DNA of 64,000 bases. It comes from Acidimicrobiia bacterium (GTDB taxonomy: Bacteria > Acidobacteriota > Vicinamibacteria > Vicinamibacterales > CAVVIG01). Each line of letters begins with the position of its first letter. Positions within the stretch are counted from its first letter, which is position 1. The notes beneath the pieces are model-generated. The model ran no database searches. It saw nothing but the letters and a program-made list of their open reading frames with translations, and had not been told where the DNA came from. Below, piece after piece: positions 4,383 through 62,891 of this stretch. The position numbers were made by a program, and so were the translations under genes. The DNA lies in the NCBI GenBank assembly GCA_016871175.1, contig VFZL01000002.1, forward strand, positions 1 to 64,000. Reading direction: 5' to 3'.

Positions 4383-6250
<1,868 letters not shown>

Positions 6251-55398: not shown

Positions 55399-56311
55399 GG
55401 CGTCGATTGTAATAGCATTGAGCGGCTGCGCTGCCGACCTCGACGTTTCGAGGCCAGCTGACCGGATCGGTGCTCACGTGCTGCTGCGCGATCGACTGCG
55501 AGGGCGACTCGACGAGATGGGCGACACGCCGGACTACGTCCGGCTGGCGTCCGACATACTCGGGATCCGCAACGCGCCGCCGGCGCTCGCGCGCAAACTC
55601 GTCTCGCAGGCACTCGTGCTCGAGGATCGGCGCGATGCGTGGGCCGCCGTCGGTGAGGAGGTCATCGCCACCGCGCCCGCGACACCGGGTGTCTATGTTC
55701 TGCGCGATACCGATGGGCAGGCTTTGTATGTCGGGAAAGCGGTCAACCTGAAGCGACGACTGCGCGCGCATTTCGGGGCGAGGCGATGGCGGGGGCTGAA
55801 GGCGCCTCTGGCGCGCGTGGCGCAGGTCGAGTGGTTCGACGTGGGGTCGGAGCTCGAGGCGTTGCTGCGGGAGGCAGTGCTCATTCGCGACCTGCAACCG
55901 ATCGTGAACGTGCAGATCGGACCGCCCAGTAGCCGGACGCGCGAGGTCCCGCAGTCGCTGTGGAAGGATGTGCTCCTGGTGCTGCCGTCGGTCGATCCGG
56001 TTCGCGTCGAGCTGGTGGGTGCACGCGCCGACGGCGGGTGGTTCCAGCAATCGGTGGCGCGGGATGGCTGTGACCTCGCCATCCACGTCCGGCGCGCGTT
56101 CCGTTTCTTTCGGTCGCCACTTCGCACACGGGAGGATTCCACGCCTCTTGCGCCCCTGGTCTTCTCATGGCTCGCCGCGCGCGGTGGACACACCACGCGG
56201 CTCGACCCACAGGACTGCGCGACGCTGGTGAAGCTCGAAGCCCGCCTCGCCGCCCTGCTCGGGGACAAGGATCTCTTCGCCGAGCGCCTGGTACTCGCGT
56301 CTCGCGGGTGA
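55397..56311 (+). CDS. GIY-YIG domain protein (UvrC N-terminal/Cho-like)
   Basis: The protein of about 304 residues has a GIY-YIG nuclease domain PGVYVLRDTDGQALYVGKAVNLKRRLRAHFG, followed by ELEALLREAVLIRDLQPIVNVQIG (catalytic Arg and Glu, conserved Asn). The domain order and the absence of UvrC's C-terminal RNase H-like and HhH regions resemble Cho-type nucleases or stand-alone GIY-YIG proteins. It may act in nucleotide-excision repair. The true start is uncertain: ATG 55397, a TTG near 55418 or a GTG near 55478 all keep the domain. Confidence 0.78.
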   Translation: MASIVIALSGCAADLDVSRPADRIGAHVLLRDRLRGRLDEMGDTPDYVRLASDILGIRNAPPALARKLVSQALVLEDRRDAWAAVGEEVIATAPATPGVYVLRDTDGQALYVGKAVNLKRRLRAHFGARRWRGLKAPLARVAQVEWFDVGSELEALLREAVLIRDLQPIVNVQIGPPSSRTREVPQSLWKDVLLVLPSVDPVRVELVGARADGGWFQQSVARDGCDLAIHVRRAFRFFRSPLRTREDSTPLAPLVFSWLAARGGHTTRLDPQDCATLVKLEARLAALLGDKDLFAERLVLASRG

Positions 56312-56370
56312 CTCACGGCCCAGCGGTCGAAAAGCGTCCAGAAGTGCGGTAGACTTGGAGTTCCGCTTCA

Positions 56371-56447
56371 GCGCCCTTAGCTCAGTTGGATAGAGCGTCT
56401 GGCTACGAACCAGGAGGTCGCAGGTTCGAGTCCTGCAGGGCGCGCCA
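56371..56447 (+). tRNA. tRNA-Arg (anticodon ACG)
   Basis: A complete 77-base cloverleaf with encoded CCA: acceptor GCGCCCT/AGGGCGC, D-arm with AGCTCAGTTGGATAGAGC, anticodon stem TCTGG/CCAGG around CTACGAA (anticodon ACG, A34 to be inosine), and T-arm GCAGGTTCGAGTCCTGC. Integrase debris follows, so it is the likely attachment site of a lost element. Confidence 0.97.
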
Positions 56448-56557
56448 AATTCCTGAGGAAGGTCACTCGTCTCGGAATTCGTCGATGGCGAAGCTCTGCG
56501 CTGACTGACAAGTGACTGACAATGCGTAGCGGCGTCGAGCGGTCCGTGGTGGTGTCA

Positions 56558-57227
56558 TCACGCGCCAACTGCCTTCAGTTGTCGTCGACGTTCCCACACA
56601 CCCGTCAACGCCTTTCGCAGCTCCTCGTCTCTGATGTTCAGATACCGCTGCGTCGTGTTGATGTCGGAGTGCCCGAGCACTAACTGGAGCGTGCGGATGT
56701 CGACGCCGTCGGCGAGGAGCCGGCATGCGCCTTCATGTCGCACGTCGTGCCAGTGGAGATCGATCTCCCGCGCGATCGACCCGAGCTCCGGGCTTCGCGC
56801 GTGTGGTGTCGTGACCGTTCGCCAGGAGGATGAGGGATTCCCAGGCCGTCTTGCAGCTTGTCCTGGAACTCGCCGACGGGCGTGCCGAACACGAACGCGT
56901 GGGGTCCCAGGGTCGCGCGGCGCCTCGGGATCGGCGCCAAGCGGCCGTGTGAATCAAAGGAACGCGTCTGTTCTCCGCGTCCTTCGCGTGACCGCCGGGG
57001 ATAGCGATCTGGTGCTGCGTCCAGTCGACGTGGCGGTTCTGGATCCGCAGCATTTTGCCCTGCCGGCAGCAGGTTTCAAGGGCACCGACGATCCGGTCGT
57101 GCATCGCGGGGCCCACCCACCTGTGCTCGGCCGCGTTCATCGTGTGGCATGCGGCGAGTAGCGCGTCCTCCTCTCGCGTTCTGATGTTCACGCCGAACCG
57201 ATGGAACGGCGTCGTCGAGAGGAACGG
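56558..57227 (-). pseudogene. Tyrosine recombinase (phage-type integrase), remnant with several frameshifts
   Basis: Pieces of one integrase are spread over three minus-strand frames. The first (about 57227-56960) reads GVNIRTREEDALLAACH...VGALETCCRQGKMLRIQNRHVDW..HQIAIPGGHAKDAENRRVPL; the middle reads GPHAFVFGTPVGEFQDKLQ; the last reads VRHEGACRLLADGVDIRTLQLVLGHSDINTTQRYLN with the HxxR, LGH and catalytic Tyr region. The C-terminal end lies about 110 bases from the tRNA-Arg 3' end, the usual position for a tRNA-targeting integrase. At least three shifts mean it is dead. Confidence 0.8.
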
Positions 57228-57288
57228 CGGATCCTGGAATCGGCCCCGCATGGAGACCGGAGGATCCGCCTGTCGGCACGGCGTCGGA

Positions 57289-57729
57289 CGATCTGCGGAC
57301 ATTCTGGTGTCGGGCAACTGGAATCACCAGAAGAACGAGACCGGCTGGGCCGGACGCTCGACTCAGGGCGGCGTGGCGGGTCATGGCACCTCGAGTCCCT
57401 ACGACATCCACAACACCCTGATTGCGGCCGGTCCGGATTTCCGCGAGCGCACGCGTAGCCGAGTCCCAACGTCGAACGCAGACTTGGCTCCGACGCTGCT
57501 GAAGTTGATGGGCCTGACGATCCCGAACACGATGTCCGGGCGCAGCATCGACGAGGCGTTACGCGGGGGCCCGGCGCTCGGCTCAGTGCAAGCGGTGCGG
57601 CGCGTCGAGACCGCGAGACTGGCTGATGGCGCGTATCAGGTGGATGCGCAGGTGACTCGAGTCGGATGCGCGCGCTACCTTGACTTCACCGAGGTCCGCC
57701 GCTCGACTCCAACCACCGTGCCACGGTGA
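57289..57729 (+). pseudogene. Alkaline-phosphatase/phosphodiesterase-superfamily protein, 3' fragment
   Basis: The fragment reads ADILVSGNWNHQKN, HGTSSPYDIHNTLIAAGPDFRE, then VPTSNADLAPTLLKLMGL, the metal-site and C-terminal hallmarks of type I phosphodiesterase/nucleotide pyrophosphatase and sulfatase-like enzymes. The N-terminal half with the nucleophile and first metal ligands is missing, cut at about 57285 where integrase debris adjoins. It ends with TGA at 57727-57729. A stretch of about 150 bases without a gene follows. Confidence 0.65.
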
Positions 57730-57878
57730 CGTATCGTACCCCACCGAACGCTCCAACGCGTCGGCCCACCTTCGACCAGAGCCTGCCTTCCTTGTGGCTC
57801 TTCGTTCCCATGGTTACCTTGATCGTGTGAGCCCTGGTCGCTTCCGTCGATGTCCAGCGGTTCGTGAGGCTCCGTCGA

Positions 57879-57965
57879 TCAGAACGCGTAGGTCAGACCG
57901 AAAACTGCGATCCGGCCGGGCATGATCGCCGTCGGTCGCAGGTAGTTGGCCCCGGATTGCACCGT
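57879..57965 (-). pseudogene. TonB-dependent receptor, last about 28 residues only
   Basis: Read on the minus strand, the frame ends VQSGANYLRPTAIMPGRIAVFGLTYAF followed by TGA at 57881-57879. A terminal Phe preceded by alternating residues and the xxILxPRxxR-like pattern are typical of the C-terminal beta strand of TonB-dependent outer-membrane receptors. Upstream it is cut at about 57966 by the antiparallel ATPase fragment. Confidence 0.5.
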
Positions 57966-57966
57966 G

Positions 57967-58562
57967 TTGAGGCGCAGAGCCTTGGGCATGATCTGCTCGA
58001 GGAGATTCGGTTGCTGGCCAACGTCGAGAGCGACTCGCACAAATTGATGCCGCTCGTGCTCGCGGGGCAGCCCGAATTGGCGGCGCGGCTGAGCGACCCC
58101 AGCCTCAGGCAGTTGAAGCAGCGGATCGCGTTGAGGTGTTTCGTCGATCCGCTCTCGCTGCAAGAGACCGGTGCGTACGTGAGCGCCCGAATCCGCGCGG
58201 CGGGCGGCGAGGCCGTGCGGCTATTCACGAGAGAAGCCGTGATGCTCATTCACGAGCGTTCGCACGGCATTCCGCGCACCATCAATGTGATCTGCGACAA
58301 TGCCCTGTTGACCGGCATGGCACTCGGTCGCCGGCCCGTGAGCAAGAATGTCGTCTTTGAAGTGTGTCGGGATTTCGATCTGCGGCAGGCCGGGACGCCG
58401 AGGTCACGGCCGCAACAGGCACCGCCGGCCGGACCGTTCTCGGCATCAGGCCCGGCCACGAGCGTGGGTGAACAACGACACGGGGATCAGGTCGATGCTG
58501 GTGATCCCTCTGTCGATCAGGAGTCAGGCGTCGATGCCTTGAGGCGTGTGCTGAGGGAGTGA
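57967..58562 (+). pseudogene. ExeA/XrtA-associated AAA ATPase, 3' fragment starting inside Walker B
   Basis: From about 57970 the frame reads EAQSLGHDLLEEIRLLANVESDSHKLMPLVLAGQPELAARLSDPSLRQLKQRIALRC, characteristic of the ExeA/GspA-like ATPases found in exosortase EPS loci. The fragment begins at the EAQ of the expected DEAQ Walker B; Walker A and the start are missing. The C-terminus is complete (FTREAVMLIHERSHGIPRTINVICDNALL). An in-frame start exists upstream in unrelated sequence (57864), so a short product could still be made. Confidence 0.7.
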
Positions 58563-58978
58563 AGTGACGACGCGACGGTGGGTCGAGTAGTCCCCTTCCT
58601 GGACAACTTTGAACGCCCTGCCGGCAGTGTTCCGCGGTCCTTCAGCACGGCACGTCTCCTCGTCGCAGCCTGACACGCTGAGCTAAGTGTTTGTGGCTGA
58701 GCGTCATCGGCCGGCCATTGCCAGGGGCGCGCTCGCGGTGACATCTTTGCAGGCTTCCACAGCAGCCGCCGCCGTGTCTGTCGTCCTGGCGCAGCCGGCC
58801 GGATGGCGGCCCGGGGATTCCCCGTTGGCGTGCCAGACAACCGATGCTGGCGGGGATCGTGTATCGTGGTCGAGAGACGTCCCGTTCGCATGCTCGCCTC
58901 TGTGGAGCGGCACGAACAACCGACACCATTCGTTTCACTTTCAACGGTTACAAGACACTAGGTTCAATAGCCAAGAGA
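58563..58978. other. Intergenic, no gene recognised
   Basis: The roughly 415 bases between the ATPase fragment and the aminotransferase contain only short Arg/Ala-rich open frames on both strands without domains or start signals. No tRNA, repeat or clear promoter is visible; the final 60 bases are more AT-rich and probably carry the aminotransferase promoter. Confidence 0.5.
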
Positions 58979-60133
58979 ATGACTGAGAGGATCCCGCTCC
59001 TCGATCTACGCCCCCAGTACGACCCCCTCCGGGAAGCCATTCTGGCCAGCGTCACACGCGTGTGCGACAGCCAGCAATACATCAATGGACCGGAAGTGGA
59101 AGCGCTCGAGACCGAGCTGGCGAATATGCTGAGTGTCCCGCACGCCGTGGCAGTGTCGTCCGGGACCGACGCGCTCTTGTTGGCACTGATGGCGCTCGAC
59201 GTCGGACCCGGCGACGAGGTCGTCACGTCGACCTACTCGTTTTTCGCCACGGCCGGCGCCATCGCGCGGGTCGGCGCTACCCCTGTGTTCGTCGACATCG
59301 ACCCGGTGACGTACAACGTCGATCCGCAAGCGCTCGCCGCGGCGATTACACCCCGGACCAAGGCCGTGATTCCCGTCCACCTGTACGGGCTGAGCGCCGA
59401 CTTGGATGCCATTGTTGGCGAGGCAGCAGGTCGAGGGGTCGCGGTCATTGAGGACGCCGCGCAGGCCATCGGGGCCACCTACAAGGGGCGCCCAGTAGGC
59501 AGATTCGGGACATTCGGCTGCTTCTCGTTCTTCCCCAGCAAGAATCTGGGCGCGTTCGGCGACGCCGGGCTCCTCACCACCAATGACCCCAAGCTGGCGA
59601 ACCGCGCGCGCCTGCTGCGGGTGCATGGGATGCACCCGAAGTACTACCATTCACTCATCGGCGGCAACTTCCGATGCGATGCGCTCCAAGCTGCGATTCT
59701 CCGCGTGAAGGCGCCACACCTCGCGGCCTGGACCGAAGCTCGTCGGGCGAACGCCGCGCGCTATATGGAGCTGTTTGCGCGCGCGGGGCTGCTCGACTCC
59801 ATCGGCCTGCCGACCGAACCAGCTGACCGACGCCACGTCTTCAATCAATTCATCATCCGTACGTCTGACCGTGACGGGCTGAAGCGTCAACTGGAGGCTG
59901 AGGCGATCGGCAACGAGATCTACTATCCGGTGCCGTTCCATCTGCAACCGTGCTTCGCGCACCTGGGATACTCGCGCGGTGACTTCCCCCACGCAGAGCG
60001 AGCGGCGGAGCAGACGCTGGCGCTGCCAATCTACGGCGAGATGACCCCGGATCAGCAGCAGCGCGTCGTGTCGGTCATCGCGGCGTATTTCCTGAGCAGC
60101 TCAAACCGCGTTCCCGGACTGGCGAAGGTTTGA
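58979..60133 (+). CDS. DegT/DnrJ/EryC1-type PLP aminotransferase
   Basis: The 384-residue sugar aminotransferase begins IPLLDLRPQYDPLREAIL and has VSSGTDALLLAL, STYSFFATAGAI, IEDAAQAIGATYKGRPVG and the PLP lysine in FFPSKNLGAFGD. The GGNFRCDALQAAIL and YPVPFHLQPCFAHLGY regions complete the fold. It aminates a keto-sugar nucleotide, probably for the EPS; which sugar is not readable. ATG 58979 is the family start; upstream in-frame sequence is not used. Confidence 0.93.
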   Translation: MTERIPLLDLRPQYDPLREAILASVTRVCDSQQYINGPEVEALETELANMLSVPHAVAVSSGTDALLLALMALDVGPGDEVVTSTYSFFATAGAIARVGATPVFVDIDPVTYNVDPQALAAAITPRTKAVIPVHLYGLSADLDAIVGEAAGRGVAVIEDAAQAIGATYKGRPVGRFGTFGCFSFFPSKNLGAFGDAGLLTTNDPKLANRARLLRVHGMHPKYYHSLIGGNFRCDALQAAILRVKAPHLAAWTEARRANAARYMELFARAGLLDSIGLPTEPADRRHVFNQFIIRTSDRDGLKRQLEAEAIGNEIYYPVPFHLQPCFAHLGYSRGDFPHAERAAEQTLALPIYGEMTPDQQQRVVSVIAAYFLSSSNRVPGLAKV

Positions 60134-60557: not shown

Positions 60558-62891
60558 ATGAGCCGAGTCGAACAGTCATATCATCGACTGCGACAAGGAG
60601 CCTCTGACCCTCCGTCCGATGACCAGACCGCGGACCCGGCCGGGGAAGTCCTGGAGCGCTACCCGCGCGAGAATCCTTCGACGGCTGACGACCCCTCGCA
60701 CTCCACACTCAAGGGCGAAGCACAAGTCAGATCAGGGCGGAATCCGGTGGATCGGCGTCGGCCAATCGCGATGCGGGCCGAACCCCTGGATTTCCCACAG
60801 AGCAGGGTGTCGGATGGTGTGCGGTGGGCTCAGCAAGGCGGGGAGCCGGTCTCATCTCGCGTCAGCATGGCCATCCCGTCGTCGGGCGATGACTCTGATT
60901 TCAATCCGACAACAATGCTGTGGGGCTTCCTTCGAGTGCTGGCTCGGCGGAAGTGGCTGACACTGGCGGCGTTCATCTTGGTGCTCGCAGGTAGCATCGC
61001 GTTCCTCAGGACCCTGAAGCCTTTGTTCCGCGCGACGGCGCGCCTTACCGTTGAGTCCAGAACCGCGACCGACACCCTGCTGAAGACCCCTGACGCAGGA
61101 CCTCAGCAGGGATACCTCGAGACCGTCGCCGAAGTGCTGCGCAGTCGCTCGCTCGCCGAACAAGTCGTCACGACGCTCGAGTTCTGGCGGCATCCGGAGT
61201 ACGCGACCACGGCTGGCGACGCAGCACCTGGTCCCGATGGGCCCGTCCCACCCGGGCTGGTCGATCGACTCTTGGCGAATACGAGCGTCGCGCTCGTTCC
61301 GTTGAGCGCGGTGGTGAACGTGTCAGTGCAGTCATCCGACCCGGAGCTAGCCGCCAACGCCGCGAACGGCATGGTGGAGGCATTCATCCGGCGCGACCTT
61401 CAGTCTCGGCTGGCCGTGGCGAAGGACGCGACCAGTTGGATAGCGCGGCAGCTCGAAGAGCAGCGGATGCGTGTCACGGAAACGGAAGCGTCGCTGCAAC
61501 GCTACCGCGAGTCGCAGAACGCAGGGTCCCTCGATGAGCGCCAGAACATCGTCGTCCAGCGGCTCGGCGACCTCAACACCGCCGTGACGCGTGCGCGTAC
61601 GGAGCGTATAGCCAAGGAGGAACTGTTCAAGCGTGTCGGTGAGCTTCGGGGTAATCGGGCGCAGCTCGATTCGGTCCCGGCCGTCGCGGGCAACGCCTAC
61701 ATTCAGCAGCTGAAGGGGCAACTCGATCAGATCGATCGGCAGCTGCAGGAAGCGGCGCTGACCCTAGGCGACAAGCATCCGGAGATGATCCGATTGAACG
61801 GGGCGAAGGCCGAGGCCGACCGGCGACTGGCGGCCGAGATCGACACGCTCATCGGGTCGGTGCAGAACGAGTTCCTCACAGCCCGAGCGCAGGAGCAGAG
61901 CCTGACCGCGGCACTCGAGCTGCAAAAGCGCGAGGCCCAGGAACTGGATCGCAAGGGGGTGGAGTACGCCGCGCTGGTTCGAGAGGCGGAGAGCAATCGC
62001 GCGCTCTATCAGAGCCTGCTTGAGCAGGCCAAGAACGTCGGCATGTCGAGCGACCTACAGCGCAGCAACGTCCGCATCCTCGACCCGGCGACGCTGCTGC
62101 GCTTCCCGATCAACCCGGTCGGTCGGCTCACTCTGCTGCTGGCGGTGATCGCCAGCCTGACCTTTGCCGTCGGCCTCGCTTTTGTCGTGGAGTACCTCGA
62201 TCCACGGCTTCGGATTCCAGACGAGATCTCGAGTCAGCTCGGGATTCCGCTGCTGGGGGCGGTCGAGCAGCTGCCCAAGGCGAAGGACGGCGGCGGGCTG
62301 CTCGTGACTCAGGGCGTTCCTCCTCGCTTTCGGGAAGCGATCGCTCATGTGCGCGCCAACATCGAAGCGAGCTCCGGAGCCAAGTCGGGAGTCGTGTTGG
62401 TCACCAGCTCTGGTGCGAAAGAGGGCAAGACGCTTGTTGGCGGCAACCTCGCGCTGGAGTTCGCCCTCGCGGGCCGGCGCGTGCTCCTGATCGACTGCGA
62501 TCTCCGCCGGTCCAGCGTCCATTCGCTTTTCAGCCTGCCCATCGAGCCCGGGCTGACCACGGTCCTCAATGCCCCGGGTCGCGAATCATTGGAGGTTGCC
62601 CTCAGGACGGGGCCCTGCCCCTTGCTGTCGATTCTCACCGCCGGGCCGACGCCGGCCAGTCCAGCCGAAGCGCTGGGGCTGTCCCGACAGGCAGACCACG
62701 TGGTGTTCGTCGTCGCTGCCGATATCACGCGTCGCCGCACAGCCAAGCTCGCGGCGGAACGGCTTCGGCGCGTCGGCGTGGCGTCGATCGGCGCCGTCCT
62801 CAATCGGGTCGCCATCCCCAAGTGGGGAGGACTCTACTCCCCGTGCTACAGCGACTACGGGTCGTATTACAACACGTCGTCGCGCACGTAG
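60558..62891 (+). CDS. Wzc-like polysaccharide co-polymerase / BY-kinase, Walker B segment deleted
   Basis: The 777-residue protein has a polar N-terminus (1-120), membrane helix WLTLAAFILVLAGSIAFL (about 134-151), a large periplasmic coiled-coil Wzz-type domain (EEQRMRVTETEASLQRYRES...), a second helix (LTLLLAVIASLTFAVGLAFVV, about 522-542) and a tyrosine-kinase domain. Walker A (SSGAKEGKT) and Walker A' (VLLIDCDLRR) are present, but the sequence jumps from PAEALG to QADHVVFVV near 62678, skipping the stretch of about 40 residues that carries Walker B (VIVDSPP). The C-terminus has a Tyr cluster (YSPCYSDYGSYY). The deletion is in frame. It should still act in chain-length control but not as a normal kinase. 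Confidence 0.88.
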   Translation: MSRVEQSYHRLRQGASDPPSDDQTADPAGEVLERYPRENPSTADDPSHSTLKGEAQVRSGRNPVDRRRPIAMRAEPLDFPQSRVSDGVRWAQQGGEPVSSRVSMAIPSSGDDSDFNPTTMLWGFLRVLARRKWLTLAAFILVLAGSIAFLRTLKPLFRATARLTVESRTATDTLLKTPDAGPQQGYLETVAEVLRSRSLAEQVVTTLEFWRHPEYATTAGDAAPGPDGPVPPGLVDRLLANTSVALVPLSAVVNVSVQSSDPELAANAANGMVEAFIRRDLQSRLAVAKDATSWIARQLEEQRMRVTETEASLQRYRESQNAGSLDERQNIVVQRLGDLNTAVTRARTERIAKEELFKRVGELRGNRAQLDSVPAVAGNAYIQQLKGQLDQIDRQLQEAALTLGDKHPEMIRLNGAKAEADRRLAAEIDTLIGSVQNEFLTARAQEQSLTAALELQKREAQELDRKGVEYAALVREAESNRALYQSLLEQAKNVGMSSDLQRSNVRILDPATLLRFPINPVGRLTLLLAVIASLTFAVGLAFVVEYLDPRLRIPDEISSQLGIPLLGAVEQLPKAKDGGGLLVTQGVPPRFREAIAHVRANIEASSGAKSGVVLVTSSGAKEGKTLVGGNLALEFALAGRRVLLIDCDLRRSSVHSLFSLPIEPGLTTVLNAPGRESLEVALRTGPCPLLSILTAGPTPASPAEALGLSRQADHVVFVVAADITRRRTAKLAAERLRRVGVASIGAVLNRVAIPKWGGLYSPCYSDYGSYYNTSSRT

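Follow-up and report, generated by a model that had tools for sequence, protein, structure and literature searches.

How do the ends of four unrelated genes come to lie side by side with no intact gene among them? We address this question for a locus within a window of 64,000 nucleotides (the whole stretch of DNA analysed), carried by a contig of 200,568 bp; the draft genome comprises 4.44 Mb in 85 contigs, with a completeness of 96.8%. The stretch is real, ordinary genomic debris that deletion adjacent to an integration site accounts for well, and its simplest history is probably that two deletions next to a tRNA-Arg integration site truncated four neighbouring genes in their 5′ parts.

Four gene tails beside a tRNA gene

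Intact genes are absent over 2.5 kb, from tRNA-Arg(ACG) to the start of a DegT aminotransferase gene at 58979 (Table 1), and a rough ORF caller places the region among some four stretches of low coding density on the contig. On the 5′ side of the tRNA lies a gene that we take, from its sequence, to be of GIY-YIG type. A preliminary description of this DNA had recognized four gene fragments and no intact gene over 57227–58562; protein homology bears this out for all four, although that span omits the tRNA and most of the integrase relic, which reaches back to 56558. The tails alternate in strand in the order −, +, −, + (integrase, phosphodiesterase, receptor and ATPase), and each of the four keeps its 3′ stop codon and lacks its 5′ part. 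The junction near 57966, earlier read as a joining of antiparallel gene ends, is indeed an antiparallel meeting, but the receptor and ATPase genes abut there at their broken 5′ sides (57965–57969); the natural tail-to-tail meeting is that of the phosphodiesterase and receptor, whose stop codons face each other 150 bp apart (57729 versus 57879).

Table 1. Features of the locus, in window coordinates
Feature	Position	Strand	Evidence
tRNA-Arg, anticodon ACG, intact; probable former attachment site	56371–56447	+	ARAGORN; order upstream gene/tRNA/integrase common to relative G018 (L016)
Tyrosine-integrase relic, C-terminal part only, frameshifted, stop kept	56558–57247	−	PF00589, 3.5e-9; tblastn against L015; match within own genome
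Junction 1: heads of integrase and phosphodiesterase lost; about 40 bp unassigned	57248–57285		Homology ends
Phosphodiesterase tail, open frame, natural stop	57286–57729	+	71% amino acid identity to sister-species gene (PF01663)
Spacer between convergent stop codons of phosphodiesterase and receptor tails; possibly native	57730–57878		
Outer-membrane (TonB-type) receptor tail, CarboxypepD_reg/beta-barrel, about 29 C-terminal residues, natural stop	57879–57965	−	Pfam domains of relatives
Junction 2: heads of receptor and ATPase lost; unassigned sequence no longer than about 3 bp	57966–57968		
TIGR03015-type ATPase tail, Walker B (EAQ) to stop, without Walker A	57969–58562	+	TIGR03015, 4.8e-37, model positions 131–267 of 269
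Intact DegT-type aminotransferase bounding the debris	58979–60133	+	PF01041, 1.7e-119; 384 residues without internal stop

Each tail was matched by protein homology, with E values given for single genomes. The integrase relic (matched over 56546–57245; 4.0e-53 and 1.3e-35) aligns by tblastn to residues 168–409 of a 424-residue relative (L015) in two frames, so that it lacks the N-terminal 167 residues; away from the junctions the same alignment reveals a 12-residue gap and an out-of-frame stretch, and a search of the genome with a whole relative found no N-terminal piece. The phosphodiesterase tail (57283–57717; 3.5e-62) corresponds to residues 367–508 of the 514-residue gene of the sister species (G001), in which the type I phosphodiesterase domain (PF01663) spans residues 34–351, and the relic therefore begins beyond the catalytic domain. 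For the receptor, the best relatives (6.9e-7 and 2.6e-6) are proteins of 959 and 979 residues with CarboxypepD_reg and outer-membrane-barrel domains; the relic, roughly the last 29 residues, contains neither the N-terminal domain nor a full barrel.

The ATPase tail (57921–58502; 2.8e-65) had been described as starting exactly at EAQ of Walker B, and in most relatives homology does begin at the E of this motif, at base 57969. Its score of 127.8 bits against TIGR03015, the model of XrtA/PEP-CTERM-associated ATPases, lies below the curated cut-off of 324.5, as do those of the intact relatives L019 (231.4) and L078 (251.8). Walker A is missing from the relic and present in all six named records matching the tail, each of them a longer protein. 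Of 40 genomes, 34 have family matches with E values of 1e-20 or below, this tail included; the whole-gene search that recovers the tail also picked up an 82-residue piece in G018 at 8.1e-22. A search of solved structures with the relic yielded no useful match (best E value 0.51). In a tree of eight proteins the relic groups with two PEGA-operon-type genes (G013 and G014) at a support of 90/90, below the mark for a firm grouping, so that the relic may or may not belong to the downstream exopolysaccharide locus. In four loci of relatives (L018, L019, L020 and L023) the ATPase gene follows an L019-like PEGA-domain protein and one further protein, with no exopolysaccharide genes seen nearby (Pfam scanning covered L019 only); in L055, L078 and L079 its neighbours are polysaccharide-export or Wzz-type genes.

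From their domain content, the remaining tails are predicted to be unable to work as enzymes, the PF01663 domain being absent from the phosphodiesterase tail and Walker A from the ATPase tail. The pN/pS ratios of the phosphodiesterase (0.33–0.54) and ATPase (0.31–0.47) tails reflect constraint like that among intact relatives, which suggests that truncation was recent relative to species divergence.

Integrases at the tRNA-Arg site

At tRNA-associated integration sites of tyrosine recombinases, the integrase reads towards the tRNA 3′ end. Similarly, the integrase relic here faces the 3′ end of tRNA-Arg(ACG) from about 110 bp away, and integrases of different types occupy the same tRNA in relatives. 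Unlike at such sites, the integrase is dead and a second copy of the tRNA end was not found: elsewhere on the contig the closest match shares 20 of 28 bases, at window position 38, and the window holds no other match within 3 mismatches of 30. The locus thus contains no intact integrative element.

A tyrosine integrase adjoins tRNA-Arg(ACG) in 7 of 16 loci, comprising the window and 15 loci from relatives (the window, L015, L016, L082, L086, L087 and L088), or in 7 of 14 once L089 and L093, with under 400 bp of sequence downstream, are set aside. This count rests on tblastn with four integrases and on Pfam scans of part of the downstream ORFs; an integrase match was the reason for including L015 and L016, and an integrase is present at 4 of the 13 remaining loci of relatives. 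By mutual similarity these integrases are of several types, and because related MAGs carry several types at one tRNA-Arg site, the preliminary term 'rearrangement hot spot' is a fair one. Related integrases also adjoin other arginine tRNAs, in L021, L022 and L025, the last on contig C22 of the window's own genome. There, at 5943–6700 of L025, another member of the relic's integrase family lies beside tRNA-Arg(CCG) without its N-terminal half, its match starting at residue 206 of 424. One could imagine that in Acidobacteria of this order integrase tails of about 200–260 residues, lacking the N-terminal half, persist beside tRNA-Arg more often than chance decay allows, and that a tail-only integrase has kept a use and is not debris; we regard this as very improbable. 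In G046, the 17-base core of the tRNA 3′ end (GCAGGTTCGAGTCCTGC) recurs 5.6 kb away, beyond the integrase (L015, 35–47 and 5638–5650), and this repeat may mark the distal boundary of a small integrated element.

Origin of the truncations

The layout of the tails suggests how they could have arisen. Four whole genes would once have neighboured one another, integrase (−), phosphodiesterase (+), receptor (−) and ATPase (+), with integrase and phosphodiesterase forming one head-to-head pair and receptor and ATPase another. One deletion would have run from inside the integrase into the divergent phosphodiesterase, leaving the scar at junction 1, and a second from inside the receptor into the divergent ATPase, leaving that at junction 2; the tail-to-tail meeting of phosphodiesterase and receptor would need no event. 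Because all stops are kept, all four genes are truncated on the 5′ side and strands alternate, two deletions would explain all four truncations. We infer from this layout that deletion was the cause, that its events numbered two and that all four genes once stood whole here. The intact four-gene order was not found in any relative, the genus being represented by one other genome (G001). A TonB-type receptor lies tail-to-tail near the phosphodiesterase in 2 of 10 loci of relatives (at 395 bp in L072 and 1.35 kb in L073), and the C-termini of these two receptors do not resemble the receptor relic. Only short, imperfect repeats occur in 56300–58950, none marking a transposon or a common joining sequence; plasmids searched with 57000–58700 gave no near match, and a 39-base pattern over junction 2 had no exact match in genome_contigs or viral_contigs, collections that may leave out the window's own genome.

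Alternatively, the tails could have arrived separately, as remnants of the cargo of elements integrated one after another, or as fragment insertions, without four whole genes ever having stood here. Relatives carry integrases of several types at this tRNA, which fits such a history, as does the phosphodiesterase, whose presence is limited to 15 of 40 genomes, this tail included, and whose neighbours differ in most relatives. In the sister species it lies at another place, adjoining genes that we take to be transporter genes; the same block is present here on contig C48 (79% over 4.7 kb), where a Plug-domain receptor and an LptF/LptG-type gene occupy the place of the phosphodiesterase, so that the tail may not mark a constant home of the gene. 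Separate arrival nevertheless requires a larger number of events than the two-deletion history, would not on its own account for every piece being a 3′ end that keeps its stop, and finds no repeated tRNA end downstream on the contig; we consider it unlikely.

The two-deletion history was also weighed against the preliminary suggestion of a chimeric assembly, in which the assembler would have joined unrelated sequence ends at either junction or at both. The assembly is a draft in 85 contigs, and in 4 of 16 tRNA-Arg(ACG) loci (L016, L087, L089 and L093) the contig breaks off no more than about 0.6 kb past the tRNA, which indicates a place that is hard to assemble. Halves swapped by an assembler should survive elsewhere, yet in the rest of the assembly the 366-residue phosphodiesterase head is matched only by another gene (31%, 3.5e-5), and the 132-residue ATPase head (taken from G013) has no match at an E value of 0.01, although a whole-gene search recovers the tail; at 96.8% completeness these absences argue against a chimera, while allowing for a missing contig. 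Moreover, the DNA identity of the phosphodiesterase tail to the sister species (73%) fits the 72–79% of this genome's genes around the sister's phosphodiesterase locus, the integrase relic is damaged independently of the junctions, and the junction stretch has no second copy in the assembly. A chimera is accordingly not supported and is more doubtful still than separate arrival.

Debris of this kind has a parallel in Rickettsia, where decaying remnants comprise neighbouring genes cut to short pieces and deterioration extends over segments with several pseudogenes (PMC2374718). Neighbouring genes are likewise reduced to short pieces here, but each is cut on its 5′ side and not into many pieces, with the integrase also frameshifted, and the tRNA and integrase relic flank the debris, which according to that paper is not so for its deteriorating ORFs (PMC2374718). 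Once strand and truncated side are listed, what looked like unrelated genes spliced together comes down to two deletions, and a false lead is removed; alternating strands with every piece a 3′ end offer a cheap check on similar mosaics before a chimera is called.

Other gene scars in the genome

In three relatives (L077, L080 and L081) a DegT gene follows what we take to be smpB, whereas the intact DegT gene of this genome lies in the window. At the corresponding place here, on contig C41 (L026, 6137–6283), a DegT remnant of about 135 bp follows smpB and is 77% like the intact window copy in a DNA match, the three relatives keeping the whole gene. The next gene is a PF00375 symporter, and the C41 block with the fragment is colinear with all three relatives compared. 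Gene scars of this kind therefore occur elsewhere in the genome. Within the window, the chain-length determinant/tyrosine kinase protein at 60558–62891 lacks about 33 residues of L078 between the segments aligned at SPAEALG and LSRQADHVV. The missing residues include the stretch ending VVLDTP, presumably the Walker B region, and because of this loss the kinase part may, judging from the alignment, be inactive.
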